In this document: piece by piece, positions 17,107 through 23,603 of the stretch
Position numbering within the stretch: the stretch's first letter is position 1
Layout of the letters: every line of letters begins with the position of its first letter
From: Hydrogenophaga sp.
GTDB taxonomy: Bacteria > Pseudomonadota > Gammaproteobacteria > Burkholderiales > Burkholderiaceae_C
NCBI RefSeq assembly: GCF_011772445.1
Contig: NZ_WVZN01000003.1
Span: 62,001 to 126,000, forward strand
Reading direction: 5' to 3'
Length of the DNA: 64,000 nucleotides
The notes under the pieces: generated by a model
Seen by the model: only the letters and a program-made list of their open reading frames with translations
What the model was told of the DNA's origin: nothing
The model's database searches: none
Program-made: the position numbers and the translations under genes

Positions 17107-17514
17107 CTACCGCGCGGCCCAGAGCCTGAACTCGACGTGCTTCGCGGCACCTTGAAAGTCCAGGTCCGTCGACAACAGAACCAGATCATGTCGCCGGCAC
17201 AGCTGAATGAGCAGTGCATCGATTGTTCCGATCTGCACGCCGCGACGGCGACAGGCGTTTCGAACCTCCGCGGCCTCGATGTGGTCGTCCCGGTCCGGCT
17301 GCAGGAATGCGAGGGCAGACAGGCGCTCTACCAACTGCGCGCGGGCCTTCGGCCCGGCAAAGCCTTGCAGCAGCTCTTGCAGCACGAACCCCGTCGTGAA
17401 GACCTGATCCGCACCCATCAATGCCTCCCGCAGGGCCACAACCTGAGGCTCGGACTGCTCGGTGTCCCGGCGCAGGGCCAACGACCATACGCTCGTGTCG
17501 ACAAGCATGCTCAT
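17107..17514 (-). CDS. vapC: VapC-type PIN-domain toxin
   Basis: A 135-residue PIN ribonuclease. The acidic active site can be traced: Asp in MLVDTSVWS, Glu in VLQELLQGF, Asp in GTIDALLIQL and Asp in LLSTDLDF. VapC toxins cut tRNA or rRNA when freed from VapB. The start overlaps the end of vapB by 4 nt (ATGA), the usual coupling in vapBC operons. The conserved acidic residues are present, so it is presumed active. It sits in a lower-GC region amid other defence genes. Confidence 0.92.
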   Translation of the reverse strand: MSMLVDTSVWSLALRRDTEQSEPQVVALREALMGADQVFTTGFVLQELLQGFAGPKARAQLVERLSALAFLQPDRDDHIEAAEVRNACRRRGVQIGTIDALLIQLCRRHDLVLLSTDLDFQGAAKHVEFRLWAAR

Positions 17515-17714
17515 CGCTTGCGCGTCCGCTCCGCCTTGTGGTCGAACGATGTGTCCCAGTCCAGCTTTCCGAAGAGCTCCGCCACGCGGCGTTGCTCTCG
17601 GCGGGCAATGAACTCTTGCAAGGCCCGCGTGACTGCGGCCTTTTTGGTGGACTCCCCACTGACGCGGTAAGCGCGCTCCAGGAGATCTTGATCGAGGGCG
17701 AGATTGGTGGCCAT
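17511..17714 (-). CDS. vapB: VapB-type antitoxin
   Basis: A 67-residue antitoxin (MATNLALDQDLLERAYRVSG...). Its N-terminus fits the ribbon-helix-helix VapB type seen with PIN toxins (TKKAAVTRALQEFIARREQRR), and the basic/acidic C-terminus (LFGKLDWDTSFDHKAERTRKR) should wrap VapC. ATG 17714 has AAGGAG 7 nt upstream; a longer in-frame extension to 17771 lacks such a site and would cover the operator. It forms an operon with vapC. Confidence 0.9.
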   Translation of the reverse strand: MATNLALDQDLLERAYRVSGESTKKAAVTRALQEFIARREQRRVAELFGKLDWDTSFDHKAERTRKR

Positions 17715-17743
17715 GTGTAGCTCCTTGAGTTGCAGTCTACACA
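17714..17743. promoter_or_regulatory. Candidate VapBC autoregulatory operator
   Basis: Perfect 7-bp inverted repeat TGTGTAG (17714-17720) and CTACACA (17737-17743) around 16 bp. It spans the vapB ribosome-binding site and touches the start codon, so a VapBC complex bound here would block expression. Symmetry is seen directly; the role is inferred from known VapBC autorepression. Confidence 0.65.
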
Positions 17744-17825
17744 ACCACCCACCGTGTCGCAACGAACGCATGACGAATGACCGGCCCCAAGCCGGGAATG
17801 GGGAAGCTGTGCACGTCCGGCGGCA

Positions 17826-18392
17826 TCAGGCGCTACGCACCGGCTCATACCGCAGCACCACCGCCCCCGATCGAAACGCCTTCTGCCCCACCAGCCGCAA
17901 ATCCACGTGCTGGGGCAGCCCCGCGAACAGCGTGGGCCCACGCCCCACCAGGCGCGGGTGCACGATGAACTCGTATTCGTCGATGAGGCCCAGTTGCGCC
18001 AGGGCCATGGGCAACTGCACGCCCGCCACGTACAGGCCCTTGCCCGGTTCCTGCTTCAGGCGCCGCACCTCCGCCCCCAGGTCGCCGCGCAACAGCTCCG
18101 CGTTCCAATCCACCCGTTCGAGCGTGCTGGACACGACGTACTTCTTCGCCGCGTGGATGGTCTGCGCGAAGGGCAGCGTCCACTCGGGCATGCCTTCGGG
18201 CCGCACGCCCGTCTCGGCCACGGGCCGCCAGGCGCTCTCCATCAGGCCGTAGATGACCCGCCCGAACAGCAGGGCGTCGGCCTGCGCCAGGGTGTTGGCG
18301 GCGTGGCGGTGCAGCTCTTCATCGGGGCCCATCGCCTCGTGGTCGTAACAGCCGTCCAGGGAGATGTTGATGGAGTAACGAAGCGGGCGCAT
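17826..18392 (-). CDS. Dihydrofolate reductase-like (RibD C-terminal) protein
   Basis: A 188-residue protein of the RibD-C/YyaP-type reductase family: RYSINISLDGCYDH at the start, ADALLFGRVIYGLMESAW, KYVVSSTLE, LYVAGVQLPMALAQLGLIDEYEFIVHPRLVGRGPTLF. Members share the DHFR fold and bind NADP, but their physiological substrates are mostly unknown. It is not a housekeeping FolA: the length and motifs differ. It lies within the island between vapBC and the H-NS-like gene. Confidence 0.87.
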   Translation of the reverse strand: MRPLRYSINISLDGCYDHEAMGPDEELHRHAANTLAQADALLFGRVIYGLMESAWRPVAETGVRPEGMPEWTLPFAQTIHAAKKYVVSSTLERVDWNAELLRGDLGAEVRRLKQEPGKGLYVAGVQLPMALAQLGLIDEYEFIVHPRLVGRGPTLFAGLPQHVDLRLVGQKAFRSGAVVLRYEPVRSA

Positions 18393-18513
18393 GGGGCTCC
18401 TGAGCGGGTGGATGGCGGGGGTGGGCGGCTACCGGGCCAGCATGCCCGAAGGAATAGACTCTGCGGAATTCTGCTTTCCCGCACTCACCCCACACATCGT
18501 CGTAGGAGAACCC

Positions 18514-18945
18514 GTGGTGATCAACCCCGCCAAAGACACGACCAAAATGAGCTCCACCGAACTGCGCGAATACGCGGAGCGGTTGATGCGGCAAGCCGAG
18601 GAACAGTCGACGAAGGAATTCGAGTCCACGCTCAACTTCCTGTCGGACAAGCTCACGCACATGGGCAAGACGAAGAAGGACGCTGTCATCCACCTCATCA
18701 AGATGATGAAGAGCCATGAGGCGGAGGAGACGCTGGCCGAACTGGCGGAAGGCGCCGGCTTCACCAGCCCCCGACGGGCCAAGGAGCGCGGGGACCTGGA
18801 CAGCGAGGGCAATCCACCCGAGATCGGCGTGACCTACCAGTTGCCTACGGGCGAGACGTGGACGCGCAAGAGCAAGGTGGGGGCGACGAAACGGGAGTTT
18901 GCGGCGTTTGCGAAGACGACGACTTGGGGGGCTATGAGGGTGTGA
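18514..18945 (+). CDS. Putative H-NS-like small DNA-binding protein
   Basis: A protein of about 143 residues. The N-terminal half is charged and probably a coiled coil (LREYAERLMRQAEEQSTKEFESTLNFL). The C-terminus reads TYQLPTGETWTRKSKVGATKREF, recalling the xx-GxTWxGxG DNA-binding loop of H-NS-family proteins, though the GRGRxP core is not intact. It could be an island-borne nucleoid protein. GTG 18514 or GTG 18517 both fit the AGGAG at 18504; an ATG at 18547 is a third choice. Function is inferred only from this partial motif. Confidence 0.55.
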   Translation: MVINPAKDTTKMSSTELREYAERLMRQAEEQSTKEFESTLNFLSDKLTHMGKTKKDAVIHLIKMMKSHEAEETLAELAEGAGFTSPRRAKERGDLDSEGNPPEIGVTYQLPTGETWTRKSKVGATKREFAAFAKTTTWGAMRV

Positions 18946-18978: not shown

Positions 18979-19110
18979 ATGGAACAGCGCAGTCTGTACG
19001 ACCTGGCCAACTACCTGAGCACACCCGAGAACAGGAACTTTCTAGGTCAACGAATGGGCGCTCCTGCGCGATCGCTCTACATGCGTTGGTCAGAGAGCGG
19101 GCTTGAATAG
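18979..19110 (+). CDS. 43-residue orphan frame, antitoxin-like N-terminus
   Basis: A small frame (MEQRSLYDLANYLSTPENRN...) that converges on and overlaps the end of the HNH nuclease gene by 21 bp. Its YDLANYLSTPE stretch is strikingly like YDVAAYLSTPED in the truncated antitoxin at 16831, so it may be another decayed fragment of that family. No convincing ribosome-binding site is seen. It may not be expressed. Confidence 0.3.
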   Translation: MEQRSLYDLANYLSTPENRNFLGQRMGAPARSLYMRWSESGLE

Positions 19111-20442
19111 AAATCGCCGCCGCTGGAGATAGCTCGGCTGCGGCGCACCTTTGCTTGGCACTGACATGCGCTGCCCATCGTATGGTTGCAATTGAGCACG
19201 CAGTGCGCTGTCTTCACCCACACGGCTCCAGTCGATCCGAATCGTCAAGTCATCCTCGATCAGCAGTTGGCCATTTTCGAAGGCGCGGTCGACCAACAAG
19301 GACAGGCAGATTCCATTTGCCGGGTCGAGCCTAATGGATTGATCTCGGCTCCAGGGGACAATGTGGGAGGCGACAAGAAATGCTCTGCTGGCAATGCCGG
19401 TGATCGCGCAGCGATAGCCATAGTTCGCTTTCACCGCGGCGGCGAAAGCTCTCTGTGCGCTGCCCCTGGTTTTGACCGTAGCCGTGGCATCGGGCACCTC
19501 AAACCTCCCCTGGTCAATCTTTTGTCGGAAAGCTTCTACCTCTTGTGGATCCGTTTCGGCGGCCTCGGCGGCTGCATCCGTCGGTGCGATTACCGGGAAT
19601 CGCTGCAACAGAGAATCCAGTAGTTGATCGAGAGAGGCGGCGACTCCGGGAGCCAGCGGAGCCGTCTGGACCCAGGCATCGTGGTTTTTCGCAGGGTCAA
19701 AGAACAGGCCATGGCCAGGCGCGCGAAGATACTCAATAAGCGCGCCACCCTCGTCAGGCGTGAGTTCAGTGATCGCCACCGTCTGATCGGCTGATTCAGT
19801 GATCCGAGCCAGTGCATTCTTCACAATCGCGCTTGGCGCCGTACCAGCACTGTGCAGCAGCGTCCATGCGAGCGCAGATCGCGTAGATGTCTTTGTGGCG
19901 AGGACTCGCACCTCCGGTGGCGCGAGGTTCAGGTCTGCCCACGCGAAGTGCTCGTGCGGATCCTTGAGGTAAGCGCGTAAGTGCAGTGTTCTTGATTCGT
20001 CTCGAAGCTTTACCGCCATAAGGTACGGCTGACCGGCGCCACGACTGGCAAGCAGCGCCAGTTCATGCTCGGCAGCAGCAACCGCGGAATGCGTCGGGTC
20101 ACCGGGGATGGTCTCAGCAGTCGCGTCGCTGGGGTTGAGCGTCATCTTCCAAGCGTCAGGAGCGTGGCTGGTCCCCCACTTGAGATGCGGTCGATCCGCG
20201 GAGTTAAATACGAGCGCGCCTTGAGCATTTCCAGCAGGCCACTGGTAAGTGAGCGGCACAGACTCAGCACCCGTTACATCGACAGGAAAAAGGCGCCTCA
20301 CTGCGTCGAGAAACTCGCTCGTTCGGGAAAGCTGAATGTAGTCCTTCGTGTATTTCGTACCGCTTAAGCGTCCATAGGTTGCTCGATGAGCCGACGTACC
20401 ATAGTGAACAACGAGAACCCACTCGACAGGGTGCGCAGGCAT
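19090..20442 (-). CDS. HNH-family restriction endonuclease
   Basis: A 450-residue protein. The C-terminal quarter is an HNH_2 nuclease domain: YRCAITGIASRAFLVASHIVPWS with His360, DPANGICLS with Asn376, and LLVDRAFENGQL. The first 350 residues match no family I recognise and probably carry the DNA-recognition region. The start codon directly abuts the stop of the Dam-class methyltransferase upstream, so the two are one operon, as expected for a type II restriction-modification pair. GC content and codon use are lower than in flanking core genes. A modification-dependent (type IV) nuclease is less likely, given the two methyltransferases next to it. Confidence 0.85.
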   Translation of the reverse strand: MPAHPVEWVLVVHYGTSAHRATYGRLSGTKYTKDYIQLSRTSEFLDAVRRLFPVDVTGAESVPLTYQWPAGNAQGALVFNSADRPHLKWGTSHAPDAWKMTLNPSDATAETIPGDPTHSAVAAAEHELALLASRGAGQPYLMAVKLRDESRTLHLRAYLKDPHEHFAWADLNLAPPEVRVLATKTSTRSALAWTLLHSAGTAPSAIVKNALARITESADQTVAITELTPDEGGALIEYLRAPGHGLFFDPAKNHDAWVQTAPLAPGVAASLDQLLDSLLQRFPVIAPTDAAAEAAETDPQEVEAFRQKIDQGRFEVPDATATVKTRGSAQRAFAAAVKANYGYRCAITGIASRAFLVASHIVPWSRDQSIRLDPANGICLSLLVDRAFENGQLLIEDDLTIRIDWSRVGEDSALRAQLQPYDGQRMSVPSKGAPQPSYLQRRRFLFKPAL

Positions 20443-21327
20443 CTAGAACCTCCCAATGATGATGGCTTCTGGCGACTGATGTGCCTCTACTTCTCGACGG
20501 CTTTGCGCGGCCAGTGCACGTCGCGTAGTAAAACGGATGATCTCCGCGCGTGGGAACAACGCATGTACGACCTCTGTGTCCCGATTAGACATGACCCAGT
20601 GCACGCCACGCTCCGACAGGTCTGCGCAGATCTTCGCAAGCTCGACTAAGTCTGCCAACTCAAATGTCTTGGCTGTGTACTTGTTGAATTTCGCAGTCGG
20701 CTCCTTCTCGACATCGGGGCGCGAGAAGACGGGCAGGTATGGCGGGTCGAGATAGACGAAATCGCCACGCGTTGCACCCACGAGCACTTGGCGGAAGTCG
20801 CCCGCAACAATGTCCGCACGTACCAATGCCCGCCGGACCGACGTCATCGTCGCCTCGCTGATGCCCTTGAAACTGCGATCACCCCAAGGCACATTCATGG
20901 CGCCGGTTCGCGAATTTTCACGCCAGAGGTGGTTCCATGAGACCGCGTTGAGGTAGAGGAACCGCGCAGCCTTTTCAAGGGGCGCTACCGGTACTGTCGC
21001 ACGTACCTCGTAGTAGAACTCCTTGGAGTCGCGCGCCGCATACCAGTCGAGAAGAGGACGTAGCGCCGATGGATGGTCCCTCATCGCGATCCAGGCCGCG
21101 ACCAGATGCTCGTTTAGATCGGCCAACCGCGCACGACCCGATACGCGCGCCGCGCAGGCAAGAAAAACAGCGCCTCCACCCAAGAATGGCTCGTAGTAGT
21201 TCTTGATGTCCGCCGGAACGTGCGGGAGGATACGAGGAAGGAGTCTTGATTTGCCACCGACCCACCGGATGAATGGTTTGATCGGGAGCTCTTCGGGCTG
21301 CGCGCTGTCTGATGGATGTGAAGGCAT
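20443..21327 (-). CDS. Dam-class (D12) DNA adenine methyltransferase
   Basis: A 294-residue N6-adenine methyltransferase of the D12/alpha group. Motif I region is [15 protein letters not shown] with [14 protein letters not shown], and the catalytic motif IV is DPPY at residues 194-197 ([10 protein letters not shown]). [19 protein letters not shown] is the usual mid-domain region of this family. It is almost certainly the protective methylase for the HNH nuclease encoded directly after it. The specificity cannot be read from the sequence. No strong ribosome-binding site precedes the ATG; a second methyltransferase is divergent from it. Confidence 0.92.
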
Positions 21328-21366
21328 GCTAGGAGCCGGGATGGATTCTTCTTGTGGCTCTGTCTT

Positions 21367-21381
21367 TCACCTCGGAGGTGA
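21367..21381. promoter_or_regulatory. 15-bp palindrome in the R-M divergent promoter region
   Basis: TCACCTC-G-GAGGTGA has perfect 7-bp arms around one base. It lies between the divergent methyltransferase genes, 40 bp from one start and about 60 bp from the other. It could be an operator for the tandem-HTH regulator at 23081 or for one of the methyltransferases. An alternative role as a methylated site is possible. Confidence 0.5.
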
Positions 21382-21441
21382 TGCCTCATGATATCCTGTA
21401 AATAACCCCAGTATCGCCGCTAGTCGTTGTTCGCACTGCTC

Positions 21442-22797
21442 ATGATGTTCCCTCCGTCCGATGTTCAACTGATGTGGCCGAACAAGGAGCTGCAACTGCG
21501 AGCCTCCGGGGATGACGGCTGCGAATGGGTGCAGCCGGCTGACGACCGGCTGCTCATGCCGCTCAAATTCGAGGCCCTCACGGATGGCCCCCTGGACGCC
21601 CGCACAAACGTGCTGGTCGCTGGAGACGGCCTTGACGCGCTGGAAGCGCTCGCTGCGCATACCAGGGCGTTGGATGGCGGCATTCGTCTGGTGTACATCG
21701 ATCCGCCTTTCAACACTCAAGGCAGCTTCCGCCAATACAACGATGCAATGAACCGGCCGATGTGGCTGAGCATGATGCGAGACAGACTGGCTGCGCTGCG
21801 CCCCTTGCTCTCCGAGGATGCGAGCGTATGGGTCCATCTGGATGATTCGGAGGTACACCGGGCTCGCTCTGTAATGGATGAGGTTTTTGGCGAAGGCGCA
21901 TTCGTTGCTTCGGTGGTATGGCAGAAGAAGACGACGCGCGACTCGCGCGCGGCCTTTTCATCCAATCACGACACAATTCTGGTGTATGCCCCGAGTGGTC
22001 CGAAAAAGTGGAAAACGTCGCGCAATCTGCTGATCAAAGATGAGGCGCACTTGCAAAACCGTGACGATGACCCTCGCGGCCCGTGGGCCGATGCGCCTTT
22101 TACGGCGCCTGGATTTCGCAGGGCTCAACAGTACGACATCGTTACACCTACCGGCCAGGTGTTGCGGCCACCGCGAGGGCGCTCGTGGTATGCAACGCAA
22201 CAGACCTATCGTGATCTGCTTGACGATGGAAGGATCTGGTTTCCTAAAGGGGGCGATGGCTCGCCTCGACTAAAGCTTTTTGCACATCAGCTAAGAGGGC
22301 TTGTTCCGTTCACCGTGTGGGGTGCACCAGATACCGGCACAAACGACGATGCAAAGCGCCACTTGTTGTCCATGTTCCCCGAGGCAGAGGTTTTTGATAC
22401 GCCAAAGCCCGAAGCGCTGTTGGAGCGCATCATCCATATTGCGACCAACCCGGGTGAACTGGTAGTCGACATCTTTGGTGGCAGCGGGACCACTGCAGCC
22501 GTGGCCCACAAGATGCGGCGGCGATGGGTGATCGCCGAGCGCAACACGCAAACAATCTTGGATTTCCTGTTGCCGAGAATGCAACGCGTGGTTGGCGGCA
22601 CAGATTCCGGAGGGGTAACCGACATCACTTCTTGGACCGGAGGTGGGAGTTTCGAGATTGTTCACGTTACCCCCAGATTCGGAAAGCTGTCCAGACGCCA
22701 CCAAGCAGAGACCATCAAGCGACAGCTAGCGCGCTCATCAAGTGAACAAGTGCCTCGCCTCAGACGGGGTCTTCAGGCCGAACTACTGAATTCCTGA
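21442..22797 (+). CDS. Beta-class (Mod-like) DNA methyltransferase
   Basis: A 451-residue amino-methyltransferase. The catalytic motif DPPF (from residue 87, VYIDPPFNTQGS) precedes the SAM-binding motif DIFGGSGTTAAVA (from about 343), which is the beta-class order of type III Mod and some type II enzymes. YNDAMNRPMWLSMMRDRL and WVHLDDSEVHRARSVMDEVFG are typical of Mod-like N6-adenine enzymes. The protein is shorter than most type III Mod subunits and no Res helicase is nearby. It probably modifies the second strand of an asymmetric site recognised by the HNH nuclease. ATG 21442 was used; TTG 21427 and ATG 21472 are alternatives, none with a clear ribosome-binding site. Confidence 0.9.
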   Translation: MMFPPSDVQLMWPNKELQLRASGDDGCEWVQPADDRLLMPLKFEALTDGPLDARTNVLVAGDGLDALEALAAHTRALDGGIRLVYIDPPFNTQGSFRQYNDAMNRPMWLSMMRDRLAALRPLLSEDASVWVHLDDSEVHRARSVMDEVFGEGAFVASVVWQKKTTRDSRAAFSSNHDTILVYAPSGPKKWKTSRNLLIKDEAHLQNRDDDPRGPWADAPFTAPGFRRAQQYDIVTPTGQVLRPPRGRSWYATQQTYRDLLDDGRIWFPKGGDGSPRLKLFAHQLRGLVPFTVWGAPDTGTNDDAKRHLLSMFPEAEVFDTPKPEALLERIIHIATNPGELVVDIFGGSGTTAAVAHKMRRRWVIAERNTQTILDFLLPRMQRVVGGTDSGGVTDITSWTGGGSFEIVHVTPRFGKLSRRHQAETIKRQLARSSSEQVPRLRRGLQAELLNS

Positions 22798-23080
22798 ATG
22801 CAAGTTTGAAGCGAGGCTCGCCCTGGCTGGCCTAACTCCCGATGATGAGTCGAGACCGCTGGCAGGGATAGCTCACCCTCGAATCAGTGGTCTTTCTAGC
22901 CTGGCGCTGGCTACCGGGGGCAGTTACAGACATTCACCGGCCTAACCAACTAGGAAGCCACGTCGATACCTTACCGGTGAAGAGTTGAAGGTTCAGCAGC
23001 AGCGCATGCGCGGAACGAGCCCGATCCCACCGCGTTCCCTCAACCCAGCGGGCACGCGGATCTTGAAAGCAGCAACGACA
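22798..23080. other. Non-coding gap in the defence island
   Basis: 283 bp between the stops of two convergent genes. I see no credible open frame, tRNA or strong hairpin here. The base composition is lower in GC than the core genome, as in the rest of the island. Confidence 0.5.
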
Positions 23081-23548
23081 TCAATTCGAACTCGTTAGAA
23101 GCGTCGCCATCGACAAGGCGAGCGACGCCGCGAGCCTTTCAAGTGTCTGCAGCGAAGGGTTCCTCGCTTGGCGCTCGATGCGCGCGATGACTGGCCTGCT
23201 GACGCCGGATCGCTGACTCAACATCTCCTGAGTCAGCATCAAGCGCCCCCTTGCTGCGACAAGGTTCTGCGCCAGCAGAGCCTCGATCAAGTTGTCAGCC
23301 TCCTGTCGAGCCACAGGCCGCGCTCCGAGCAGTGAACCTGTGGACACGCCCAGAGCACGAGCCAACTTATCCACCGTGCCCAAGGACACATTGAGCTCCC
23401 CTCTTTCCAGACGCTGAATCATTCGGCGGTCCACGTGGGCCTGCTCCGCGAGCGCGCGAGTACTCCAGTTGCCTTGCGCACGCAGAGCAACAAGGTTCCT
23501 GGCCAACTGGCCACGCGCGGGAGAGGTTTCGGACGCTTGATCAGGCAC
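23081..23548 (-). CDS. Tandem-HTH (XRE-family) regulator
   Basis: About 155 residues made of two XRE-type HTH units in a row: LARNLVALRAQGNWSTRALAEQAHVDRRMIQRLERGELNVSLGTVDKLARALGV, then LVAARGRLMLTQEMLSQRSGVSRPVIARIERQARNPSLQTLERLAASLALS. The first unit has the classic C/Cro pattern, and the second a more degenerate one. GTG 23548 gives a clean start; a TTG at 23599 would add a CPKC-containing leader without a ribosome-binding site. It is divergent from a small orphan gene and lies in the R-M island, so it could act as a controller protein. Confidence 0.75.
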   Translation of the reverse strand: MPDQASETSPARGQLARNLVALRAQGNWSTRALAEQAHVDRRMIQRLERGELNVSLGTVDKLARALGVSTGSLLGARPVARQEADNLIEALLAQNLVAARGRLMLTQEMLSQRSGVSRPVIARIERQARNPSLQTLERLAASLALSMATLLTSSN

Positions 23549-23592
23549 CGAAAAAGTGTGGAGACCAAACCCGCAGGGGTGGCGGCATTTAG

Positions 23593-23603
23593 GGCACAAT
23601 GCC
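23593..23603. promoter_or_regulatory. Small dyad between the XRE gene and orphan gene
   Basis: GGCA-CAA-TGCC is a perfect 4-bp inverted repeat in the short region between the divergent starts. It could be a site for the tandem-HTH regulator. The arms are short, so chance is possible. Confidence 0.3.

Follow-up and report, generated by a model that had tools for sequence, protein, structure and literature searches.

Restriction systems that read asymmetric sites

In restriction systems with asymmetric sites, modification of each strand needs separate recognition, as described in an extract of a recent paper (PMC12707154). The same extract presents LlaJI as a system in which a B3 domain reads the unmodified asymmetric site and two methyltransferases are needed for full modification, with restriction through an McrB-related nucleoside triphosphatase and an McrC-related nuclease; it also names TagI and a Vca enzyme as SRA-HNH and EVE-HNH modification-dependent nucleases (PMC12707154). 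For BfiI, extracts of two further papers describe a C-terminal B3-like domain with a phospholipase-D nuclease (PMC4081073) and two methylases that act on opposite strands (PMC4267653). HpyAII, which recognises GAAGA, is an HNH type IIS system whose strands are each served by an exocyclic methylase, the second of the two making N4-methylcytosine (extract of PMC7494987). Herein, a restriction-modification (R-M) locus is compared with these systems. It lies in a 64,000-nucleotide stretch of Hydrogenophaga sp. (contig NZ_WVZN01000003.1, positions 62,001 to 126,000), referred to below as the window, and consists of genes for an HNH nuclease, a Dam-class methyltransferase and a beta-class Mod-like methyltransferase.

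The locus is best explained, with a probability of roughly two in three, as a type II R-M system in which a B3-HNH nuclease for an asymmetric site is guarded by a Dam-class methylase and by a second methylase derived from a type III Mod without Res. What leads to this reading as type II, probably type IIS-like, is the joint presence of a predicted B3-like reader, a cutter of the HNH kind and two methylases that differ in descent. In keeping with type II, the nuclease and the methylases, which are presumably cognate, are encoded together in 7/7 loci, and the window cassette has no ATP-driven motor subunit. The features of the window on which the description draws are the following.

19090-20442, minus strand: HNH restriction endonuclease gene, 450 amino acids (aa); open reading frame (ORF) with an HNH_2 domain, under purifying selection in relatives
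19963-20442, minus strand: N-terminal part of the nuclease, residues 1-160, a probable B3-like DNA-recognition pseudobarrel; no sequence family, low-confidence models best on the LlaJI.R1 B3 domain
20329-20403, minus strand: nuclease residues 14-38, the most conserved block (20/25 invariant, seven loci)
20170-20202, minus strand: nuclease residues 81-91, the second conserved block (9/11 invariant, seven loci)
19258-19410, minus strand: HNH_2 catalytic domain (Pfam), residues 345-395, with H360, N376 and D385 invariant in seven loci
20443-21327, minus strand: Dam-family (alpha-class) N6-adenine methyltransferase gene, 294 aa; Pfam and TIGR00571, nearest structure DpnM 2dpm
20875-20937, minus strand: probable target-recognition loop of the Dam-class enzyme, residues 131-151 (19/21 invariant, five loci; aligned with DpnM and E. 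coli Dam)
21328-21441, no strand: intergenic stretch between the divergent methylase genes, presumed from the gene arrangement to hold their promoters
21442-22797, plus strand: beta-class Mod-like methyltransferase gene, a type III Mod relative without the C-terminal region (Pfam, type III model, Mod alignment)

A conserved three-gene cassette

All three genes are intact in the ORF list; the third ORF runs from 21427 to 22797 (plus strand, 456 aa), its likely start being the ATG at 21442. The first-pass annotation of the window had placed the Dam-class gene directly against the HNH gene, with the Mod-like gene divergent from both, and the ORFs, a gap of 0 nt between the Dam stop and the HNH start, and the family assignments bear this out. 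It had also seen a composition unlike that of the flanking genes. This holds as well, with a guanine-cytosine content of 0.57-0.59 in the 1-kb bins of 19001-23000 against mostly 0.65-0.73 in the rest of the window.

The three genes keep one order (Mod, Dam, HNH) in 7/7 loci with a full-length nuclease relative, always oriented Mod(-)/Dam(+)/HNH(+) when read in the direction of the nuclease. These loci are the window itself, L014 (where Mod is cut by the contig end), L015 on an Alcaligenes chromosome, L016 on a Sphingomonadales contig, L018 on a Paracoccus plasmid, L025 on a viral contig, and L036. Because all seven share the three genes in order, the arrangement is more than chance. Across loci the Dam-HNH gap varies from -4 to +3 nt. 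Furthermore, the pairwise identities of the three proteins correlate with r of 0.92-0.95 over 21 locus pairs, which are not independent of one another, and the nuclease is the least conserved of the three in 21/21 pairs. In the three pairs formed by L014, L015 and L025, the nuclease has a ratio of nonsynonymous to synonymous substitution rates (dN/dS) of 0.06, 0.08 and 0.20, with Dam at 0.03-0.20 and Mod at 0.06-0.10; these low values indicate that the nuclease is maintained in these relatives and is not decaying. Altogether, the conserved order, the correlated divergence and the purifying selection give good support to the earlier view that the three genes form one R-M locus.

A probable B3-like recognition domain

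The first 350 residues of the nuclease had been annotated as matching no known family and as a possible new target-recognition region. Residues 1-200 indeed gave no Pfam match in 6/6 members scanned, the window included (E up to 10, with the HMMER filters dropping most weak matches), and their profile gave no PDB match up to E 10. Residues 210-316 have two matches to Pfam, both below threshold, BAT at 0.02 and FlgM at 0.077. A role in target recognition is likewise probable; that the region is new is less likely, in that the predicted models point to the B3-like pseudobarrel, a fold already known.

Structure prediction of the N-terminus, proposed in the first-pass annotation as a check, gave low-confidence models whose best Foldseek match in the PDB is the N-terminal domain of LlaJI.R1, both for the full protein (E 7e-3, probability 0.93) and for the N-terminal part alone (E 9e-3, probability 0.95). 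For the full model, the two best matches are the two chains of this domain; the BfiI recognition domain, TEM1, RAV1, ARF2 and LEC2 are also among the matches listed, and B3-like proteins make up 7 of the best 50 rows. With the N-terminal model, LlaJI.R1, ARF, TEM1 or RAV1 occupy 14 of the top 15 rows, LlaJI.R1 being first, and B3 proteins account for 16 of the best 50. The order of strands (E) and helices (H) in the full model, namely E6-13, E35-37, H42-51, E61-68, E71-78, E86-89, E108-113, H121-133, E140-146 and E153-156, resembles that of a B3 pseudobarrel.

The distribution of invariant residues over the seven loci is consistent with such a role. The blocks at residues 14-38 and 81-91, which were picked after the counts had been seen, hold 20/25 and 9/11 invariant positions, against 46/164 in the rest of residues 1-200. 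They presumably occupy the positions of the first and second DNA-contacting arms of the B3 fold, and the placing of invariant blocks at these loops suggests that all seven cassettes may read the same target. A separate arrangement was seen at L040:2-1764, where an EcoRII-N-like domain forms a 135-aa protein of its own upstream of a nuclease that looks EcoRII-like by eye and has a different N-terminal part.

Two methyltransferases of different descent

The upstream neighbour of the nuclease gene encodes a Dam-class enzyme (MethyltransfD12, 1.1e-36; TIGR00571 'dam', 176.8 bits, the cut-off being 114.85), in which the DPPY and GGGA motifs are invariant in five loci. Its own genome holds no second match to the Dam family at E up to 0.001. 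Its nearest structures in the PDB are DpnM (2dpm, 7e-37) and then E. coli Dam (2e-23). Residues 131-151, whose role as target reader we take over from E. coli Dam, are invariant at 19/21 positions in five loci. The loop residues L, R and P are conserved in the cassette enzymes; in E. coli Dam they presumably recognise the T and the C of the GATC site. The first base is contacted in Dam by a lysine, and the corresponding position is an arginine in 5/5 loci. From these alignments, a GATC-like core is possible for the Dam-class enzyme.

The other methylase had been annotated as beta-class and Mod-like. Its class was confirmed (N6_N4_Mtase, 7e-39), and it can be placed more precisely as a relative of type III Mod that lacks a Res partner and the C-terminal part, type III Mod models being its best match (PADLOC, 1.3e-95; PDB 6k0w, 4.7e-34). 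Mod matches were found in 752 plasmid records, and six that lie outside the cassette were picked from the best 25 for comparison. These six Mods are 35-41% identical to the Mod-like enzyme and have a Res gene beside them in 6/6 cases, five annotated as DEAD/DEAH helicase and one as hypothetical but carrying ResIII; the complete Mods of the cassettes stop short of their C-terminal region. No Res or helicase adjoins the window cassette among the ORFs viewed by eye, and its relatives share, by eye, the three genes only. The locus thus holds a Mod-like gene, with the Res and the Mod C-terminus of a type III system absent. The DPPF motif points to N6-adenine rather than N4-cytosine as the modified base, which matters because the second methylase of HpyAII is an N4-cytosine enzyme.

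L036 is the one locus with a helicase-like neighbouring ORF: adjoining its cassette, L036:2-3907 is a single long ORF in which, by eye, a RecQ-like helicase is joined to a UvrD-like helicase.

The pairing of an alpha-class with a beta-class methylase brings DpnII and MboI to mind. Systems of the DpnII type also combine the two classes, although a literature search for this pairing returned nothing. On this model both methylases would act on the same symmetric GATC-type site, with duplex DNA as the substrate of the Dam-class enzyme and single-stranded or incoming DNA as that of the beta-class enzyme; the palindrome would be cut by the HNH protein. The proximity of the Dam-class enzyme to DpnM and the conservation of its T- and C-reading loop residues, whose roles are taken from Dam, are what this model would expect. 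The second methylase is where it fails to follow: it is close to type III Mod and not DpnA-like, with a weak DpnA match of 5e-5 over 49 residues, and the targets of type III Mod enzymes are asymmetric. The exchange of the first-base lysine for arginine in 5/5 loci also speaks against a shared GATC site. EcoRII, with CCWGG, is a near-symmetric exception among B3-type enzymes. The B3-type restriction enzymes LlaJI, BfiI and CglI, in the extracts of the literature available, read asymmetric sites, as does the type III enzyme EcoP1I at AGACC (extract of PMC2962900). A DpnII-like system is accordingly regarded as unlikely, and the asymmetric type II system is preferred.

The catalytic domain and the case against

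The C-terminal part of the nuclease carries an HNH_2 domain (PF13391) at residues 345-395, with an E value of 2.1e-9 and 37.5 bits against a curated cut-off of 21; the domain also exceeds this cut-off in L036 and L025. H360, N376 and D385 are invariant in 7/7 loci, and two HNH models of PADLOC match the C-terminal third of the protein.

Several observations weigh against the proposed B3-HNH system and concern the recognition domain, the catalytic domain and the selection estimates in turn. The AlphaFold models are poor, with a mean predicted local distance difference test score of 45.6 for the whole protein and 43.4 for residues 1-200, and both rest on the same five sequences and are not independent, so that any claim about the fold is provisional. 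No Foldseek match reaches E 0.001, the best lying near 0.01, and the root-mean-square deviations are large; for the full model, just 4/10 of the top ten rows are B3-like. Comparison of profiles gave no match to two EcoRII-N sequences (probability 0.1%, the profiles being very shallow), a control comparison with the Dam alignment being equally negative, and a search of a viral structure library, itself uninformative, returned no named B3 protein among its best 50 rows. In the catalytic domain, V, M or A stands in 7/7 loci where the classical HNH motif has its third histidine. This histidine is also absent from 3/7 HNH relatives inspected by eye out of 12 loci (L007, L009 and L012, of which L009 and L012 look EVE-type by eye), and its loss alone is therefore no argument for an inactive enzyme. 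The nearest solved HNH domain is 6yex, which we take to be VcaM4I, an EVE-HNH modification-dependent enzyme. Lastly, two of the three pairs used for dN/dS have a high dS (nuclease values 2.0 and 2.5); saturation prevented a ratio in all three pairs tried with the window.

The relation to 6yex raises the question of whether the HNH protein could be a modification-dependent (type IV) nuclease that travels by chance with two protective methylases, and a known nuclease of this kind was the outcome that the first-pass annotation had named as speaking against its proposal. The HNH part is indeed similar to such enzymes, and a phosphorothioate-dependent NCBIfam model also matches it, at 29.8 bits against a cut-off of 180. 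However, the SRA and EVE readers of modified bases that accompany the related C-terminal HNH domain in TagI- and VcaM4I-type enzymes were not found here: Pfam detected no SRA, EVE or sulfur-binding domain, and none appeared among the best 50 fold matches of either model, both of them poor. In addition, the N-terminal models match best the B3 domain of LlaJI.R1, and both methylases are linked to the nuclease in 7/7 loci, which would be needless for a cutter of modified DNA. A type IV nuclease is therefore considered highly improbable.

Similarly improbable is a division into two overlapping units, in which the Dam-class and HNH genes would make up a type II system of the simple kind and the divergent Mod would be an independent orphan (e.g., regulatory or anti-restriction): Dam and HNH are directly coupled and orphan beta-class methylases are common, but the divergent Mod is kept in 7/7 loci despite differing surroundings, and its divergence tracks that of the other two genes.

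Proposed mode of action and comparison with known systems

In the type II system favoured here, a monomer of the nuclease would read the asymmetric target in its unmodified state through the B3-like domain, which would cover about the first 160 residues. Cleavage by the HNH domain at the C-terminus would follow at or beside the target, probably once two nuclease molecules meet. Since the target would be asymmetric, each strand would need its own methylase. Both enzymes are expected to methylate an adenine, the Dam-class enzyme on one strand and the Mod-like enzyme, freed from Res, on the opposite one. The nuclease would thereby attack foreign DNA, and the two methylases would protect the DNA of the host. 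Such paired-strand methylation, suggested in the first-pass annotation, fits the predicted B3-like N-terminus and the precedents of LlaJI and BfiI.

Each of the systems introduced above shares part of this architecture. LlaJI also combines a B3 reader, here predicted, with two methylases, and provides the best structural match of the nuclease N-terminus; in the present cassette, however, a single HNH protein carries the reader and the methylases belong to adenine families. The LlaJI methylases are 5-methylcytosine enzymes. BfiI, a type IIS enzyme with the site ACTGGG, is likewise a single-chain nuclease with two methylases, and it has the B3-like reader and the asymmetric site that are predicted for the cassette, but here the cutter is of the HNH kind and the predicted B3-like part is N-terminal. 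With HpyAII, the cassette shares an HNH nuclease and two exocyclic methylases, a likeness by description, as the proteins were not compared. Relative to the type III Mod/Res pair, Res and the C-terminal region of Mod are missing, and a Dam-class methylase and an HNH nuclease have been added.

No described B3-HNH nuclease was found among the papers listed in literature searches, viewed by titles and the beginnings of abstracts; REBASE was not covered, and unpublished or REBASE-only relatives may therefore exist. An extract of one paper brings together HNH, B3 domain and restriction endonuclease as terms, with B3 in its reference list only (PMC7145662). That the cassette represents a single-chain B3-HNH nuclease, with the two DNA strands guarded by a Dam relative and by a type III Mod minus Res and its C-terminus is judged slightly better than an even bet. 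If true, a type III specificity module would here have been taken up naturally by a type II system, in a compact cassette that plasmids and prophages spread. It would also add a B3-HNH architecture to the known nucleases and tie the evolution of type III Mod to type II systems. Two unrelated methylases that need to agree on one asymmetric site would make a clean test case for the way in which R-M specificities are kept in step, and a compact B3-HNH enzyme could serve as a reagent.

Distribution and mobility of the cassette

The known loci came from several collections. A pattern-based nuclease scan of bacterial genome contigs gave four loci, the plasmid collection one full-length nuclease match among 10 records, the nuclease search of viral contigs one locus, and the sampled genomes of the class one further locus. 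The count is a lower bound, because the scan of genome contigs used exact short peptide patterns. With the window counted, 7/8 loci hold all three genes. The eighth, L017:7536-8927 in a Gemmatimonadetes metagenome-assembled genome, retains nuclease residues 143-447 only, fused in frame to an N-terminus that looks transporter-like by eye; inspection by eye of its ORFs of at least 150 aa brought up no cassette methylase, and the locus is a remnant or an assembly chimera.

Among 60 relatives, 11 have a nuclease match, which covers the N-terminus only in the window's own genome and is confined to the HNH domain in the others. The N-terminal profile found two true loci, one being the window's own, among 369 genomes of the class, the same two among 398 genomes of the phylum, and the window's own alone among 399 genomes of the order, these three sets overlapping. 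A further profile match with E of 0.001-0.01 in a protein named by eye as LptD-like outer-membrane protein was rejected as chance; a second distant match in the same range, in another genome, lies within a 71-aa frame. The Dam alignment retrieved five loci from viral contigs, one on the nuclease-bearing contig and four more distant, and two of these four, inspected by eye, show no cassette. One phage record was matched, in the HNH domain only.

The cassette is most likely a mobile, horizontally moving defence system, and the surroundings of its relatives differ. The Paracoccus plasmid of L018 is mobilizable and has an annotated recombinase next door. In L025, on an IMG/VR viral contig, an integrase-like ORF adjoins Mod by eye, and in L016 a resolvase-like ORF lies about 3.7 kb away, also by eye. 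In the window, both genes flanking the cassette have copies of at least 87% identity in one relative only, G003, where they lie on different contigs, so that no empty site was resolved.

Neighbouring genes

An alignment of the promoter regions showed no operator or site common to the seven cassettes. Beside the window cassette, 23081-23599 (minus strand) encodes a 172-aa protein with two tandem HTH_3 domains that matches models of R-M control proteins (PADLOC, 6.3e-22). As a controller of the cassette this gene was set aside, no such gene being found beside L015, L016, L018, L025 or L036 in ORF lists and annotation (the lists start at 140-150 aa) or in a by-eye check of the smaller ORFs (ATG start, 55-149 aa) within 1.5 kb. 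The inspection of these small ORFs brought up one AlpA-like ORF in L025, and an annotated helix-turn-helix gene lies about 2 kb from the cassette in L018. Near the other end of the cassette, 18391-18945 (plus strand) encodes a 184-aa protein that has no match in NCBIfam and none above cut-off in Pfam, and whose C-terminus looks H-NS-like by eye. Just outside the cassette, at 17107-17771 (minus strand), a gene for a VapC-type PIN toxin overlaps an 86-aa ORF that resembles a VapB antitoxin by eye.

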